The translations under genes were made by a program, and so were the position numbers. This document shows positions 9,236 to 28,768 of a stretch of DNA of 30,533 nt, piece after piece. Numbering within the stretch: the first letter of the stretch is position 1; every line of letters starts with the position of its first letter. Source of the DNA: a virus; the IMG/VR virus record IMGVR_UViG_3300030430_001676, positions 1 to 30,533 of that record, one strand, 5' to 3'. Under the pieces are notes generated by a model. It was not told where the DNA came from, made no database searches, and saw nothing but the letters and a program-made list of their open reading frames with translations.

Positions 9236-10789
9236 TTATCCAATTTGTCTACCTTGTCCATCTCCTCCACTACTACAGTTCCATTCCCAAACTTCTGAGA
9301 CTACACCATCTCCTATTCTCCATAAAATAAAACTGTTAAAAAAACTTGCATTTAGTGCTTGTAAGCTTATAAATGTTCTATTTACAAAAGTGTCTACAAC
9401 AAAATAGTTATCTTCACCCAAAAATGGTCCTTCTGCTGCATTTGTACTTTGGTTTGCATAACAGACTGTTTTACCTCTTGCATCTAAAATATCTACAGCC
9501 TCAGATAGAATTTTATAAGTTCTTGGATATTGGAAACCACTTTGACAAAAACTATCTTCTTCTGTCTCCCCATTTGAATTAATGTAATATACTATAGAGC
9601 CACATCTTGTTATTACAGCAGGTTGTTTTAAAGTAACTCCACTTGAACTTGGACAAGTAATAGCTGAATCACTTGAATACACTCCAGCAGGAGGAGTAAT
9701 TTCAAAAGAAACATTTCTGTCTGTTTCTGAGGTTACCTCTGGAAATGTTTTACCTGTTTGACCTATCAAAGTGTAGTCTGTTATTGTTCCTACTTTGGCA
9801 GTTCCTACAATTACATTACCATCTTTTCTAATACCTTGACCTTCTATCCCTGCAATTTCACAAGTAAATGTAGGTAAACCAGTACCTGCTTGAGATATGA
9901 CTTTAGGACAAACAATAGTAGCACCTGAGTTTGAAAAACCAGCTCCTACTGTGATGTTAAAATATACTGTAACATTCTGAGCTGCTGAGCCTGTATTTTC
10001 AGGTATAGTTGATAAAGTAGGAGAACCACTTGAGTCTGTTGCAAAAGAAGCAATCAATCCACCTGTAAGAGATGGAAGTGTAACTACCCCTGCTGCTGTA
10101 GCAGAACCACCTTGTAAATCTACTGCTGTAACTCCAGAACTCGCTGTACATCCAAGAGCATTAGATACTGTTACTGTAACAGGCACTCTTTGAACTGCTG
10201 TACAGGTATTTACTCCATTGTCATTAGCTCTAAGATATGCACTACCAGGACCTCCTGAATTACCTGATGTAATTGTTAAAGTAGAGCCACTAAGAGAAGT
10301 ATTAAATAAAGCAGGGTTCATATTTATTACTGAATACTTTGTAGCACTATTAAAAAAACTTGCTGCATTTATAGTTGCAGTATTGCCTCCTGATGCTATT
10401 GTTTGTGTTGATATACTACCATTAAGTGTAGGTCCACCTGTACAGGAGGGTGTAGAACCTGAGGTTACCTTAGCAATTTGAGTTGCTGTAGCTGTGCAAG
10501 TAAATGTACCATCAGAGCTGTTTGTATATCCTGTAGGTATACCAATTACTACAGATATAGTTCTTGATGTGTCTGTGCTTACTGTAGCAAATTTACCATT
10601 TGCAAAATCTCCAGCAGAACTTGTAAAACTTCTGAAAGTTCCTCTTTCTACATTTGGAATTGTTACTACCCCTTCTTGGTCTACAGAAAAACCTGTAAGG
10701 TTTGCTACATTACAATCATAAGCTACAGTTGGTTCTGTAGGTGTACTATAGTTTAAGTAAAAAGGACTCCTTGCATTTATCTTACTCAT
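9236..10789 (-). CDS. Beta-repeat tail protein
   Basis: The 517-residue protein opens with SPFYLNY and is then rich in Thr, Ser, Gly and Val for some 350 residues. Recurrent Cys-bearing beta repeats suggest three or four Ig-like units: ADFANGKFATVSTDTSRTIS near 60-80, GLIASFATDSSGSPTLSTIP near 245-265 and a more diverged copy near 335-375. The C-terminal 120 residues are different (CGSIVYYINSNGETEEDSFC; AVDILDARGKTVCYANQ; WEWNCSSGGDGQGRQIG), a globular end with several Cys. It lies between the gp10-like protein and tip proteins, suggesting a distal tail or host-surface adhesion component. The ATG overlaps the previous stop codon by 4 nt. No named family is claimed. Confidence 0.65.
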   Translation of the reverse strand: MSKINARSPFYLNYSTPTEPTVAYDCNVANLTGFSVDQEGVVTIPNVERGTFRSFTSSAGDFANGKFATVSTDTSRTISVVIGIPTGYTNSSDGTFTCTATATQIAKVTSGSTPSCTGGPTLNGSISTQTIASGGNTATINAASFFNSATKYSVINMNPALFNTSLSGSTLTITSGNSGGPGSAYLRANDNGVNTCTAVQRVPVTVTVSNALGCTASSGVTAVDLQGGSATAAGVVTLPSLTGGLIASFATDSSGSPTLSTIPENTGSAAQNVTVYFNITVGAGFSNSGATIVCPKVISQAGTGLPTFTCEIAGIEGQGIRKDGNVIVGTAKVGTITDYTLIGQTGKTFPEVTSETDRNVSFEITPPAGVYSSDSAITCPSSSGVTLKQPAVITRCGSIVYYINSNGETEEDSFCQSGFQYPRTYKILSEAVDILDARGKTVCYANQSTNAAEGPFLGEDNYFVVDTFVNRTFISLQALNASFFNSFILWRIGDGVVSEVWEWNCSSGGDGQGRQIG

Positions 10790-11328: not shown

Positions 11329-11786
11329 TAGCTACAGACTGTCATTTCGTTTTGTAATAATATGTTAAAGGTTGCTGTCCATCCTGCAAGTTTATTTTCA
11401 AACCTATCTACAAAAGGCTCACAACTTACATCTTCTATAATTTGAAATTTGTTTACATATAAATCCCCTCTTTGAAACTGATTTAGAACTCTTGTAAGGA
11501 CTGCAAGTTGAGTATTTAGTATGTCTTGCTCATTGTCATTACCCACAAATATATCAGTAGTCTCATCTTTGCTAATATCTACTATATCCATGCAGATAAT
11601 AGAAGTATTAAATGTAATGACCTTTTCACCTACTGTAGCATTGTTTACAATCAAGTGAGCCAAAGGAAAGATAGTTTGCTTACCTAAATCTACATCTGAA
11701 AGCTCACCATAAGTAACAGTCTTTACAAAAGGTTCTGCTGCAAGAGTAGTCTTGAGCTGGTTTGTTACATCATAAAAGGCTTTCAT
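11328..11786 (-). CDS. Tail terminator-like protein
   Basis: This 152-residue protein has alternating helix and strand. It begins KAFYDVTNQLKTTLAAEPFV, followed by TVTYGELSDVDLGKQTIFPL, AHLIVNNA, a central IICMDIVDISKDETTD and a C-terminal ENKLAGWTATFNILLQNE. The pattern of an N-terminal helix, a 'fixed-date' strand pair and a C-terminal hydrophobic strand is typical of phage tail-terminator or minor tail proteins that cap the tail tube. The next gene (gp10-like) starts at the overlapping stop. The ATG overlaps the TGA of the -1 frameshift frame of the chaperone gene, indicating translational coupling to it. Confidence 0.6.
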   Translation of the reverse strand: MKAFYDVTNQLKTTLAAEPFVKTVTYGELSDVDLGKQTIFPLAHLIVNNATVGEKVITFNTSIICMDIVDISKDETTDIFVGNDNEQDILNTQLAVLTRVLNQFQRGDLYVNKFQIIEDVSCEPFVDRFENKLAGWTATFNILLQNEMTVCS

Positions 11787-11932
11787 TTTTTAAGTCTTTT
11801 TAATTCTATTTCTGTTTTCTCTTTCTCAAATGATAAATACATCAGACATTTATGGACATTTAATTTGGTAACCAGGTCATACTTGGTAACATCCCCCTGA
11901 GCCAATCCATAGATTGACTGATACCACCCCCA
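11783..11932 (-). CDS. -1 frame extension of the tail assembly chaperone (frameshift product part)
   Basis: From the slippery site the -1 frame is open for 49 codons to TGA at 11785-11783, which overlaps the next ATG. The product reads WGWYQSIYGLAQGDVTKYDL followed by VTKLNVHKCLMYLSFEKEK and a Lys-rich helix. It is far more protein-like than the frame-0 end (GGGISQSMDWLRGMLPSMTW), which is compositionally odd. From memory, the WGWY...LA.GD....VT.LNVH..L..L.FEKEK pattern occurs in flavophage tail chaperone products. There is no start codon before the slippery site in this frame, so expression requires frameshifting. The fused product would have 245 residues if initiation is at 12522. Confidence 0.8.
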   Translation of the reverse strand, partial: WGWYQSIYGLAQGDVTKYDLVTKLNVHKCLMYLSFEKEKTEIELKRLKK

Positions 11933-12522
11933 TTTTTTTCCAAAGTTAGCTTTTGCTCCATAGTCAGGTTCTCCTCCATTTCTTTGCTCAAATAATTCAG
12001 GGTAGTTTGCAGTAACTCCTCTTGTAAAAGATAAAAAAAAACCAGAGCACCCATAACAACATCTAAAGGCATCTGCTTCATTAGCTCTGGATTTTCTTCT
12101 GCTGTATAATCCTCTATTTGGTATCTATCTCCTTTTTTAAATTTAACAGGCCTGTAAAGAACTGTCATAGCTTTGTGCATATTATCCCAATCTTTTATGT
12201 TGTTATCTATGTCTATGTATTCTCCTAAAGTCATATCATCCAGCTTTGGTATAAAACCATACTGAATACCATCCATAATAAATAGATTTATAAAAGGTGT
12301 TTTAGATTGAAAGTTCTTATTAAGTTCTTTTATTACTTTTTGAACATAGGTAAATTTTACTGTAGCTATATCTTTCAGAGGGAGGTTACAAAATATCTCT
12401 ACCATCTTTTGAAGTAGAAAGTTAGAACCTTGGTTGTCCTCTGTGTTTATCTTTTCAAATTTTTGATATTGTTCTAAAGTCATCTCTGAGAGACTTTCAG
12501 GAACAGGTATTTTAATCTTCAT
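11860..12522 (-). CDS. Tail assembly chaperone (frame-0 product)
   Basis: Starting at the second Met (12522), the frame-0 product has 220 residues. The 39 extra bases back to 12561 overlap the terminator and are unlikely to be translated. The body contains SLSEMTLEQYQKFEKINTED, then FIPKLDDMTLGEYIDIDNNI near 112-131, MHKAMTVLYRPVKFKKGDRY and MPLDVVMGALVFFYLLQEEL. These are features I recall from a conserved flavophage protein located near tail genes. The combination of a body, a slippery site and a -1 extension matches the G/GT-type chaperones that load the tape measure protein. The order here differs from lambda because the tape measure is far downstream. Start motif TTATTATATA lies three nt before the ATG. 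Confidence 0.75.
   Translation of the reverse strand: MKIKIPVPESLSEMTLEQYQKFEKINTEDNQGSNFLLQKMVEIFCNLPLKDIATVKFTYVQKVIKELNKNFQSKTPFINLFIMDGIQYGFIPKLDDMTLGEYIDIDNNIKDWDNMHKAMTVLYRPVKFKKGDRYQIEDYTAEENPELMKQMPLDVVMGALVFFYLLQEELLQTTLNYLSKEMEENLTMEQKLTLEKNGGGISQSMDWLRGMLPSMTWLPN
11901..11938 (-). promoter_or_regulatory. Programmed -1 frameshift signal: slippery A_AAA_AAT plus hairpin
   Basis: In frame 0 the codons are GAA AAA AAT, so the heptamer A AAA AAT (11938-11932) is in the X XXY YYZ phase. Both tRNAs can re-pair one base back as AAA AAA. Thirteen nt downstream a 7-bp stem GTCAATC / GATTGGC (one T-G pair, loop TATG, 11918-11901) could pause the ribosome. The run of seven A residues is the only such run near the gene end, and it sits immediately before the point where the -1 frame becomes protein-like. 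Confidence 0.75.
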
Positions 12523-13281: not shown

Positions 13282-14454
13282 TCAATAAATAAAATATTGT
13301 CCTTTGTGTGGATTTTCTAATACATCTGTTAGAACATATCTGGCAGCATCTATACAGTCAGGATGCTCTCCCTCAGGCTTTTGCAAAGTGTTACCTTCTT
13401 TATCTTTTGACCATACATAGCCTTGTAACTCTCTTTTTAGGTTCTTACTTCTTTGAGTTACATATATTTCATTCTGATTTATAAGATTTATACCATAGAT
13501 AACAGAGTCTCTGCCTTTGGTACAAGGAAAGATATTATGACCATACTGAGAAAGTTCAGATATACTCTTTGGTTCTGCTGAGTCTGCTATTATGTTTTCT
13601 TTGATATTATGCTGATTTAGATATCTGCTTATGTCTCTATTTAACATTCCTGTCTTGTACAGGACCTCGTCAAATATGTAAGCATCATTATACTTATAAA
13701 GTGCAATTAAGGTTGTTGGGTCTACACTATAACCAAAATCCATGCCATAGCTAAGCAGCTTTGCCTCTCCAGGTATAGTATCAATTTCTTTCCAATCAGA
13801 TATACAAGCTCCCTCAAGACTTCCTGTAAGACCATCCAAATACACCCTACAATAGTTTTTCCAAAAAGTTGAGGTCTTAGCTTTTACTCTTGCTTTCTCC
13901 AGCTCCTTGACTATTGCATCAGATAAGTTTTCATTATCTCTGTAGGTAAGAGTTATGTAATCTGTATCAGGCTGACCTATCAGTTCCTTGTCTACCCAAA
14001 ACCTATTAACAGGATTGTAGTCAAGCCATATAGCTCCAGAGGTTCTTACAGCTAATTCTTGATAGCTGCTAAAGCTACAGTTGTTACACTCATTCATAAA
14101 TAGGTCTGTCCTTCTTGCCCCTTTGAGTTTCTCTGGCATATCTGTTGAGAAGAACTCTATATAGCTTCCATTACTAAAAGTGTACTTTAGAAGGCTTCTA
14201 TTGAACTTACTCTCATCAAACCTACCAAGACCTTGCATGATACTGAGAAAGTCTTTTAGAGAGCCTCTCCTTAAACTTGGGATAGTAGAAGCTACTACAC
14301 TTATTTCTTTTCCTTTATTCTTTATGGCATCATTTATAAGAATCAAAAGTATACCTATAGTCTTACCAGCAGAAGTACCTCCTCTGATAATTTTTATTCT
14401 TTGTTTTAACTCTCTGAGTTTATTTACTGCTGTAGTTTTCTTTGGCAGCATCAA
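13282..14454 (-). CDS. terL: Terminase large subunit
   Basis: This 390-residue packaging ATPase/nuclease is of the PBSX/Terminase_3 type. The Walker A motif is GGTSAGKT at residues 25-32, and Walker B is DLFMNE at about 117-122 with a following catalytic-type Glu. The C-terminal nuclease shows MDFGY (Asp239), ADSAEPKSI (Asp291) and HPDCIDAARY (Asp366/Asp369), the usual metal-binding triad positions. It cuts and pumps genome DNA into the prohead through the portal. The ATG overlaps the small-subunit stop codon. Unlike most siphophages, the portal is not next door but 12 kb away on the map. Confidence 0.95.
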   Translation of the reverse strand: MMLPKKTTAVNKLRELKQRIKIIRGGTSAGKTIGILLILINDAIKNKGKEISVVASTIPSLRRGSLKDFLSIMQGLGRFDESKFNRSLLKYTFSNGSYIEFFSTDMPEKLKGARRTDLFMNECNNCSFSSYQELAVRTSGAIWLDYNPVNRFWVDKELIGQPDTDYITLTYRDNENLSDAIVKELEKARVKAKTSTFWKNYCRVYLDGLTGSLEGACISDWKEIDTIPGEAKLLSYGMDFGYSVDPTTLIALYKYNDAYIFDEVLYKTGMLNRDISRYLNQHNIKENIIADSAEPKSISELSQYGHNIFPCTKGRDSVIYGINLINQNEIYVTQRSKNLKRELQGYVWSKDKEGNTLQKPEGEHPDCIDAARYVLTDVLENPHKGQYFIY

Positions 14455-14731: not shown

Positions 14732-15151
14732 TTAAAATAACTTTCTTTGATTTATGTCTGTTTTTGGTTGTGTATTCTCTTTATGAGTACACCACCTTAG
14801 ATTGCTCACAAGATTATTAAATGAATTATCATCTATGTGGTCTACATCTGTATATAAAAGTTTTTTGTAATTTTTTATAAAACTACAAGCAACTAATCTA
14901 TTAATCCTAAAGTATTTTGGTTTACCTAATACAGGAAGTCTTACAGAAAGATATCTTTTATCTGCTGTGAGTTGATATTTTAAGAACTTATTTGTTTTCA
15001 TGCTATAAACTCTACCCATTCTATTTATCCTATATTCAGGGTCTATTTGTTCAACAAAATCTTTTTTATATTCCCAATGCTGAATGGGGAACAATGTTGA
15101 AAGATGTTCATTTTCAGAATCTGTAAATTGAAATTTTAATTGCTTGTTCAT
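14732..15151 (-). CDS. HNH endonuclease with NUMOD4-like segment
   Basis: The 139-residue protein has a NUMOD4-like segment (about 38-75: EYRINRMGRVYSMKTNKFLK) and an HNH core (DVDHIDDNSFNNLVSNLRWC at 102-121, then THKEN). This is the arrangement of phage free-standing homing or packaging-associated HNH nucleases. Location directly before terS-terL fits two hypotheses: a homing endonuclease parked in the early region, or an HNH protein assisting terminase cleavage as in some cos phages. Its ATG overlaps the initiator stop codon by 4 nt, so it is co-translated with the replication genes. Confidence 0.9.
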   Translation of the reverse strand: MNKQLKFQFTDSENEHLSTLFPIQHWEYKKDFVEQIDPEYRINRMGRVYSMKTNKFLKYQLTADKRYLSVRLPVLGKPKYFRINRLVACSFIKNYKKLLYTDVDHIDDNSFNNLVSNLRWCTHKENTQPKTDINQRKLF

Positions 15152-26620: not shown

Positions 26621-28366
26621 CTATACTCCTTTACTTCTTGGTGTTTTAAAATTCTTTGGTTGTAAAAAACCTCTGTTTACTTGGTCTCTTGTTCTTTTAG
26701 CTACTTTTGAATCATTTTTTACAGGTTTTAAACCTTCTGCTTTAGCTTCATTTACTGAAACCTCTGCCCTTGGATTTTTTGCATCAGGATTAACTCCTTT
26801 AGCCATGTAAGTTTTTCTCATCCAAAAGTGTCTGCATGACCCACCGCCTTTGTAAAACCAAATAGAATAAGTATTAGCTCCATTTGGACCCCATCCTGCA
26901 TTGACTACTTTATTTTCCATTGAGATAATATCTTCTTTTCTGTAGATTTTACCTGCTGATGCCATTTTTACACAAAATTCTCTGCTTTCACTATCACTCC
27001 TAAGAGGTGCATATTGATACCTAACTTTGAATCTCAAGTCTCCTATCTCTTTATCTTGTTCACTTTTAGCATTTGGTCTTGCACTACCTGTAGAAGCAAG
27101 TCCTATCATTTTATCAAGTGTTTCTTCTTGGTCATAATCTACCTCTCTTTCATCTACCAGCTCCCAATTTTCTAAATCTTCATCTTCTCCTAAGTCTATA
27201 AGTGCATCTGCTACATCTGTAGGAACTGCTGCAAGTTTAACTCCTGTTTCTTCTTCCTTAGCTTCTTTAGTTACTGCATTTTCTGTATCAATAAATTCAA
27301 GAGGCTGTAACGTAACAAAATATAATTTAAGACTAATATCATTAACTGCAAGAATAGCATCCATACAGTCCACTATAAGGTCCTGATATGGTCTAATAGT
27401 AGTGTTTTGAAACAGCAAAGAAGCTGTTCTAATCTCATCTGCATTATTTCCAAGACCATTGTTGTCATCTCTAATACCTAAAAGCAGAGGAGAGGTTACT
27501 CTATGACCTACCATTATTTTCCTTGCACACTCAGAAGATAAATACTCATAGTGAGCAGGAGCATCATTCAAAGGTACATCATCAATAGTAGTTTTACTCT
27601 CAGCATTATTGTTAAAAGCTACAATGACCTTTTCTCCCATTGACCCTGTGAGCTTTCTCATTACATCATTTTTAACCTGTAACTGTTTTTCTCTTTCAGG
27701 TACACCATTGTTAAAGTTTATAACCTTAGTACCAGAAAAACCAGATTGAACATCATTAATAAGATAATCAGATATTTCACTCTCAAGCTCTGCATAGGCT
27801 AAAGAACCAGCATAGTCAGGAGGACATATATAATCATAGCCTGAAACATATCTCTTAACTATTTTAATCTCTGGTTCTGTTTTATTTCCAAAACCAAAAG
27901 CTGCAATTCTTTCAGCCTTGTCTGACTTTTTCATGTTTGCCCAATCAGGAGAATAGTAGTAAGCTCTTATGTCTCCATCTATCATCTTCTCAGGTCTAAG
28001 GGTTTGTCTTGGAAAGTGTTCTGCTTTTACTACTTTGTTGTTTTGGTATATAACCTGGAATGATGCCTCTCCTAATAGTTTTAAATCTAAAGCTATTTTT
28101 CTAAGGCAGTCATTGTTAAATATAGATTTAAGTGCTGCATACTCATCCGTCTTTGTAGAGCTGTCTAAAGCATCTATACCTTTGCCATAAATAAGCTGAG
28201 ATATACCATTTATTGTAGCATTGTTTGTAGTAGAGTTTATAAAGTTGTCTATTAGGTATTGATAGTAGTTGTTATCTTCTCCATAGGCAACATAATCTTT
28301 TTTTTTGTCCTCTACTACCTCAGGTCTGTTATAGCTTGATAAATTTATTAAGTGTACGTTTTCCAT
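26621..28366 (-). CDS. Portal protein with C-terminal Cys/His accessory domain
   Basis: The 581-residue product has a portal body (about 1-380): LKLLGEASFQVIYQNNKVVK, YICPPDYAGSLAYAELESEI, and the portal-type HRVTSPLLLGIRDDNNGLGN near 292-311. Beyond an acidic linker (about 385-425) it carries an extra module (about 445-530): ESREFCVKMASAGKIYRKED, VNAGWGPNGANTYSIWFYKG and GGSCRHFWMRKTY, with conserved Cys, His and aromatic residues. This module recurs, from memory, on protease or portal proteins of other Bacteroidetes phages. It may be a late-cleaved structural domain. The body forms the dodecameric DNA channel that terminase binds. Confidence 0.85.
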   Translation of the reverse strand: MENVHLINLSSYNRPEVVEDKKKDYVAYGEDNNYYQYLIDNFINSTTNNATINGISQLIYGKGIDALDSSTKTDEYAALKSIFNNDCLRKIALDLKLLGEASFQVIYQNNKVVKAEHFPRQTLRPEKMIDGDIRAYYYSPDWANMKKSDKAERIAAFGFGNKTEPEIKIVKRYVSGYDYICPPDYAGSLAYAELESEISDYLINDVQSGFSGTKVINFNNGVPEREKQLQVKNDVMRKLTGSMGEKVIVAFNNNAESKTTIDDVPLNDAPAHYEYLSSECARKIMVGHRVTSPLLLGIRDDNNGLGNNADEIRTASLLFQNTTIRPYQDLIVDCMDAILAVNDISLKLYFVTLQPLEFIDTENAVTKEAKEEETGVKLAAVPTDVADALIDLGEDEDLENWELVDEREVDYDQEETLDKMIGLASTGSARPNAKSEQDKEIGDLRFKVRYQYAPLRSDSESREFCVKMASAGKIYRKEDIISMENKVVNAGWGPNGANTYSIWFYKGGGSCRHFWMRKTYMAKGVNPDAKNPRAEVSVNEAKAEGLKPVKNDSKVAKRTRDQVNRGFLQPKNFKTPRSKGV

Positions 28367-28702
28367 CTATATGAATATGAAATCATTATTGCTTTCTGTC
28401 TGTTGATACTCCCCATTGTTTATGGAGTAATTAGTTTGGTTTGTGCAGAAAATTCTGTCTTTGAATACTACATCACTACCTGACTTAATTGTTAAGACAT
28501 AAAAGTTATCTTGTTTTGTAGTAAAGGTAGCATTATATCTATTAAAGTACAGAACTTCTGAAATGCTTGTAGTAGTAGCATTGTGAATGTTTGTACCTGT
28601 TTGCTCATCATCTATCGTAACTACATAGCTACCTCCACTAACAAAACTTCTTGGAATAAAATCTATGTTCTGAGCTGAACCACTCTCTTGTAAAATAATC
28701 AT
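28367..28702 (-). CDS. Unknown structural-type protein before the portal
   Basis: Starting at the internal Met (28702), the product has 111 residues: MIILQESGSAQNIDFIPRSF, then VSGGSYVVTIDDEQTG, AFTTKQDNFYVLTIKSGSDV-like strands and an acidic Asn-rich end (QTESNNDFIFI). The 17 codons upstream (open from 28753) fall in the gap between the terminator and the start motif and are unlikely to be translated. It looks like a small beta-rich structural protein, perhaps a minor head or tail component. It lies immediately after the shared start motif and one nt before the portal. Confidence 0.65.
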   Translation of the reverse strand: MIILQESGSAQNIDFIPRSFVSGGSYVVTIDDEQTGTNIHNATTTSISEVLYFNRYNATFTTKQDNFYVLTIKSGSDVVFKDRIFCTNQTNYSINNGEYQQTESNNDFIFI

Positions 28703-28715
28703 ATATATATAATAA
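28703..28715 (-). promoter_or_regulatory. Start-proximal TTATTATATA motif, copy before the portal operon
   Basis: On the minus strand TTATTATATA (28715-28706) is followed by TAT and ATG (28702). As at 12522, it follows a terminator (28736-28768) and starts a new late operon (portal, adaptor, fibres), supporting a promoter role. Confidence 0.55.
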
Positions 28716-28735
28716 AAGAGTTTTGATTTTGTTAT

Positions 28736-28768
28736 AAAAAAAAAGGGAGACAAATGCCTCCCCTCTTT
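28736..28768 (-). terminator. Rho-independent terminator after the tail tube gene
   Basis: The minus strand has GGGAG (28762-28758), an 8-nt loop, CTCCC (28749-28745), then nine T. Extra A-T and G-T pairs lengthen the stem outward. It lies 16 nt after the stop of the tail-tube-like gene. Confidence 0.85.

Follow-up and report, generated by a model that had tools for sequence, protein, structure and literature searches.

In the window, the whole stretch of 30,533 nucleotides of viral DNA analysed here, one gene near the terminase gene is accompanied by a second open frame in the -1 register. The locus raises the question of where the frame changes, which machine changes it and what two products with a common beginning would be used for. 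An earlier note had proposed a programmed -1 frameshift of the lambda G/GT type in a tail assembly chaperone gene and had placed it at the heptamer A AAA AAT. Our comparison of related genes indicates that conserved recoding of this gene is real, as is the -1 extension, and that the site is an uninterrupted run of nine T (T9). The features of the locus are collected in the table.

Features of the two-product gene and its surroundings (positions in the window)
Feature	Position	Strand	Basis or remarks
Frame-0 ORF, short product, 220 aa	11860..12522	(-)	ATG at 12522, stop 11862-11860; phrog_32199
-1 frame C-terminal domain, 83 codons + TGA	11783..12034	(-)	LSFTRGVTANYPELFEQ...KWGWYQSIYGLAQGD...; AlphaFold2 mean pLDDT 84.7
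T9 run, conserved recoding site by comparison	12033..12041	(-)	Codons GTT TTT TTT TAT; context GG TTTTTTTTT ATC
T TTT TTT heptamer, in phase, inside T9 run	12034..12040	(-)	Where a ribosomal shift would take place
Dual-coding stretch, 57 frame-0 codons over the -1 domain	11863..12033	(-)	Fall in third-position change; openness test
Next gene, 152 aa	11328..11786	(-)	phrog_30964, annotated unknown function
Terminase large subunit	13282..14454	(-)	Upstream of the two-product gene; Pfam PF04466/PF17288, phrog_2
Probable tape measure protein, 537 aa	3122..4735	(-)	Weak phrog_58 match, E = 7e-4; sequence character

The frame-0 product is conserved over its full length in 80 near homologs from viral contigs, with identities down to 57%. 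Counted from T9, the -1 frame stays open for 83 codons, reading LSFTRGVTANYPELFEQRNGGEPDYGAKANFGKKWGWYQSIYGLAQGDVTKYDLVTKLNVHKCLMYLSFEKEKTEIELKRLKK, and its stop codon, TGA at 11785-11783, shares bases with the start codon of the following gene (ATG at 11786) in the form ATGA, as the earlier note had observed; the same overlap with the downstream gene start was found in 46 of 78 clusters. The two-product gene lies on the same strand as the probable tape measure gene and about 7 kb upstream of it, between the terminase gene and small connector-like genes of the tail module. The direct adjacency to the tape measure that is usual in lambda-like phages is absent from the window, in agreement with what had been noted before, and a Flavobacteriales prophage (L274) has the same gene order with tip-like genes in between, the gene roles there being judged by size and sequence character instead of profile matches. 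Directly upstream of the gene, at 12589-12560, a strong intrinsic-terminator-like hairpin is followed by a T run, so the gene may start its own transcript or be read through. The neighbourhood also includes a gene for an HNH endonuclease (14732-15151), close to the terminase gene. Further homopolymers in the window are an A9 (sense strand) at 28298-28306, near the 5' end of the portal gene (26621-28366), a T9 at 28736-28744, at the very start of the ORF 28367-28753, and an A10 (sense strand) at 16974-16965.

T9 was invariant in position and phase in all 80 near homologs, and the -1 frame from T9 onward was a conserved protein in all of those long enough. In the predicted long product the junction residues read FF-LSF and the C-terminal domain carries KWGWY. 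Furthermore, frame-0 third-position mismatch was 0.31-0.40 before T9 and about 0.07-0.27 per block just after it, so T9 is also the point at which the constraint changes. In 75 of 79 clusters the -1 ORF has no ATG among its first 33 codons; most of these ORFs therefore have no independent start, and separate translation of the -1 domain was ruled out. TTTAAAC, AAATTTG and further in-phase heptamers within the overlap were rejected as well, as altogether they occur in only 28 of 79 clusters.

The site put forward before, a -1 frameshift at A AAA AAT (11938-11932) with a stem at 11918-11901, has to be weighed against this junction. The heptamer is indeed in phase, and beyond it the -1 frame continues for 49 codons without a stop, beginning with WGWYQSIYGLAQGDV. 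The stem exists too, with 7-8 bp (AGTCAATC/GATTGGCT) and z = -1.86, although 10 of 200 shuffled sequences folded equally well. However, the aligned heptamer AAAAAAT was kept in only 8 of 77 clusters. In the window it arises from Lys-Lys-Trp codons (AAA AAA TGG), and elsewhere its place is taken by AGAAAAT, GCAAAAT or AGCAAAT, among others. The -1 frame upstream of it, starting from T9, is already conserved protein and encodes the peptide GVTANYPELFEQR between the two sites. A stimulatory role of the stem found no support either, since the region that includes it, 80-150 nt past the T run, showed no enrichment of structure (mean z -0.04, n = 79). Hence a shift at A AAA AAT is very improbable. 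The T9 junction and the change of constraint at T9 together put the proposed site wrong by about 100 nt, and the extension is 83 codons long instead of 49. Scarcely credible, in turn, is the explanation of the two frames by mistakes in sequencing or assembly, by gene decay or by phase variation through replication slippage. Homopolymers are error-prone and hypermutable, but over 320 loci, from many metagenomes and from deposited genomes of cultured phages, share the frame relation, both frames are under constraint and no locus was found in which a change of run length fuses the frames.

Alignment-based searches reached relatives at 20-35% identity, and with all searches pooled there were 326 loci, with 243 distinct junction sequences, in which 9, 10 or 12 consecutive T precede a C-terminal domain encoded in the -1 frame. 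Comparison with related phages, which the earlier note had suggested, bore out the -1 frame as a conserved part of the protein that appears to be reached by programmed recoding. Among the homologs are two cultured phages of Nonlabens (Persicivirga), P12024L with gp40/gp41 (NC_018272) and P12024S with gp38/gp39 (NC_018271), both with T9 at the corresponding position and a KWGWY domain encoded in the -1 frame. Each pair is a single recoded gene whose two portions were annotated as independent hypothetical proteins. In P12024L the extension appears as a hypothetical protein of 55 aa in its own right, which agrees with the expectation that a plain gene call truncates the probable chaperone. T9 is also present in some of the most divergent members, prophages of Bacteroidales and Flavobacteriales (L257-L261, L263, L266, L267), including homologs about 20% identical and one in DNA of 52% GC.

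None of the 326 T-run loci carried an extra T that joins both frames in one. One added T would fuse the frames and such homopolymer mutations are frequent, so the two-frame state is under active maintenance, an argument that the phages need the short product as well as the long one. The exceptions to the rule are few. One locus (L207) has T8, which still holds T TTT TTT. In another (L233, 1983-2669) both domains are naturally fused in frame with no T run, which shows them to be parts of a single protein; this locus is a singleton in its collection, with no near relatives in viral contigs. A divergent prophage at a contig edge (L262) has the C-terminal domain in the -1 frame behind a junction of only T5 and could be decayed or recoded differently. 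One further locus (L150) is cut off by the contig end, and the matches in two others (L269 and L270) were too weak and partial to use. Gp10 of Flavobacterium phage 6H (L268:10044-10927), a weak structural match, was not counted as a homolog, its junction being a different one, T6C. In 6H, the -1 frame at T6C has its stop after the junction, and an unannotated overlapping -1 ORF of about 105 aa (10044-10361) follows gp10.

A further property of the locus is that the frame-0 product continues beyond T9 over the -1 domain. In the near set the frame-0 ORF stays open for 53-63 codons after T9. We kept the -1 protein fixed and drew its codons at random among synonyms; in most of the 17 representatives the median draw left frame 0 open for a few codons, and an opening as long as the real one was reached in 0.05-2.3% of the draws per representative (P = 0.0005-0.02). 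On this evidence the stretch is dual-coding and both frames appear to be selected over it, which also explains the odd composition of the frame-0 end that had been remarked on earlier. Part of what is conserved in frame 0, such as the NGGG motif, is a consequence of the WGWY codons of the -1 frame. Distant homologs have frame-0 tails of 16 to 86 codons. The tail in the Nonlabens phage has only 25 codons and shows no relationship to the one in the window, which makes this part of the product lineage-specific.

Since U UUU UUU occurs in phase within each run of nine or more T, either the RNA polymerase or the ribosome could slip there. Programmed -1 ribosomal frameshifting at U UUU UUU within T9, as in lambda and P2, would give the same two products, and a shift in a few per cent of passages would be sufficient for the lambda ratio. 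The T8 exception, moreover, keeps the ribosomal heptamer. The frameshift in G/GT is a classic of phage recoding, and the recoding of tail assembly chaperones has been described as ribosomal (PMC5009743, PMC10885494). Seven T would be enough for a ribosomal site, yet the runs of 9-12 T start at codon position 1, 2 or 3 and their length stays at least nine. Loss on one side is compensated on the other: runs that lack the T on the right tend to have one more on the left (Fisher P = 9e-5 with clusters at 70% and 0.006 with clusters at 60%), and those that lack the T on the left tend to have two or more on the right (P = 0.02). Run length rather than phase is thus what is kept, which favours the polymerase. 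The codons of the run are TTT TTT in 79 of 79 clusters, compared with 22% TTC for the upstream Phe, and the change of T to C at the last base of the heptamer, silent in both frames where the first -1 codon is TTA or TTG, was never seen in the 59 clusters of this kind. A 3' structure is lacking as well: no stimulatory stem or Rfam element was found at the junction, and a search limited to stem-loops gave no enrichment from +5 to +75 after the T run (mean z 0.05 ± 0.11, 79 clusters), although the lambda frameshift, a ribosomal one, also does without a stem-loop. In E. coli, U_UUU_UUU is much less shift-prone than A_AAA_AAG (PMC5009743).

Counts of homopolymers elsewhere in 247 kb of coding sequence of these phages bear on both machines. 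Runs of at least nine T were absent (4.3 expected), runs of at least eight T numbered 2 where 14.1 were expected (P = 8e-5) and runs of at least nine A numbered 6 against 28.6 (P = 4e-7), with T7 runs only mildly reduced (25 versus 35). In many bacterial genomes A and T runs become selected against at a length of nine, an effect attributed to transcriptional slippage (PMC1088944). In-phase T7 (14 versus 22.3) and in-phase A7 (26 versus 42) were somewhat depleted too, so ribosomal slippage matters in these genomes as well, a point that counts against the polymerase, as do the T8 and T5 exceptions described above. The flanking Ts may also be held in part by hydrophobic residues in both frames, which would weaken the same reading. 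In all clusters the third frame closes within 11 codons, usually within 2, which would suit a heterogeneous transcript pool; we give this little weight because the closure is partly forced by Phe-Arg/Lys codons. The selection for a run of at least nine is evident from the alignments. Weighing both sides, we favour programmed RNA polymerase slippage at T9, with some confidence, and regard ribosomal slippage at the same run as a genuine but lesser possibility.

For the function of the gene, profile and structure searches gave limited guidance. No Pfam match was obtained for the two-product protein, and the only PHROG hit, phrog_32199, is annotated as of unknown function. AlphaFold2 modelled both the frame-0 product and the -1 domain confidently, the former with a pLDDT of 81.9 and a long helix at residues 153-184 that passes through the slip point. 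Fold searches of the PDB returned nothing usable, the VIA-align rows covering almost only residues 160-220, a helical stretch, with Z of at most 5.4; the sequence search of the PDB gave nothing for the -1 domain and one chance match for the frame-0 profile. Among predicted viral structures (BFVD) the best matches were uncharacterised phage proteins, followed by gp10 of Flavobacterium phage 6H and an annotated tail assembly chaperone, the latter a weak match (E = 0.023, prob 0.99, TM 0.40). A search of the literature available to us found no paper in which tail assembly chaperones of flavobacterial phages are linked with frameshifting. The gene recoded at T9, lying beside the terminase, could instead encode a different factor for head or tail morphogenesis, a reading that agrees with the missing Pfam and PDB fold matches, the uninformative PHROG and the separation from the tape measure. 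We consider it unlikely in view of the location in a tail module whose order is repeated in a second genome (L274), the G/GT-like two-product layout and the structural match to an annotated tail assembly chaperone. From the position, the two-product design and the weak structural match, a lambda G/GT-like tail assembly chaperone role is likely.

We infer the following mode of action, in which the polymerase as the slipping machine, the product ratio and the chaperone function are the conditional parts. RNA polymerase would slip on nine or more T and add one U in part of the transcripts, and the U-added transcripts would be translated straight into the -1 frame. The two predicted products would share residues 1-163, one being the 220-residue frame-0 form and the other a 246-residue form that ends in the conserved KWGWY domain. 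The short form would most likely coat the tape measure protein, like lambda gpG, and the long form would recruit tail-tube subunits, like lambda gpGT, with slippage setting the ratio of short to long.

The layout resembles known systems in part. In phage P2 the tail chaperone gene E/E' is read by a ribosomal -1 shift at T6G; this U-rich site is similar to ours, but P2 needs six T and a G, whereas the run described here is uninterrupted and at least nine long. Lambda gpG and gpGT, made by a ribosomal -1 shift (PMC5009743), are likewise a short and a long product with a common N-terminal domain, encoded in a tail module upstream of the tape measure, and the -1 extension stops where the following gene begins. 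The comparison to G/GT made in the earlier note holds for this two-product layout; the slip itself is probably made by RNA polymerase, which had not been considered. In contrast to T9, the lambda slip site is G GGA AAG. Lambda shifts near the end of G, whereas here the frame-0 product continues in the dual-coding stretch for about 57 codons past the slip; tip-like genes stand between our gene and the tape measure, and no sequence similarity to the lambda proteins is detectable. Programmed transcriptional slippage in bacteria is known from Shigella spa13, spa33 and mxiE, from IS elements and from Thermus dnaX (PMC1088944, PMC5009743, PMC3711429), where a homopolymer of about nine A or T also stands at a two-frame junction and its length is under selection. 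None of these is a phage tail gene, and the site described here, with slippage inferred from sequence, is kept across a whole phage lineage.

Our data thus describe a T9 recoding site that is conserved over great evolutionary distances in a tail gene of phages and is probably read by transcriptional slippage. On balance we lean towards a whole ancient lineage of Bacteroidota tailed phages and prophages that would set the ratio of the two forms of its tail assembly chaperone by polymerase slippage on T9, in place of ribosomal frameshifting, and carry in addition a dual-coded overlay of about 57 codons. For annotation, the finding corrects several hundred phage genomes in which the chaperone gene is truncated and a small ORF is spurious or missing; the T9 homopolymer is a sequence that automated frame correction might wrongly "repair". 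If the proposed reading is true, evolution would keep the ratio of the two products and not the machine that sets it, and the host RNA polymerase would have a direct part in tail assembly.
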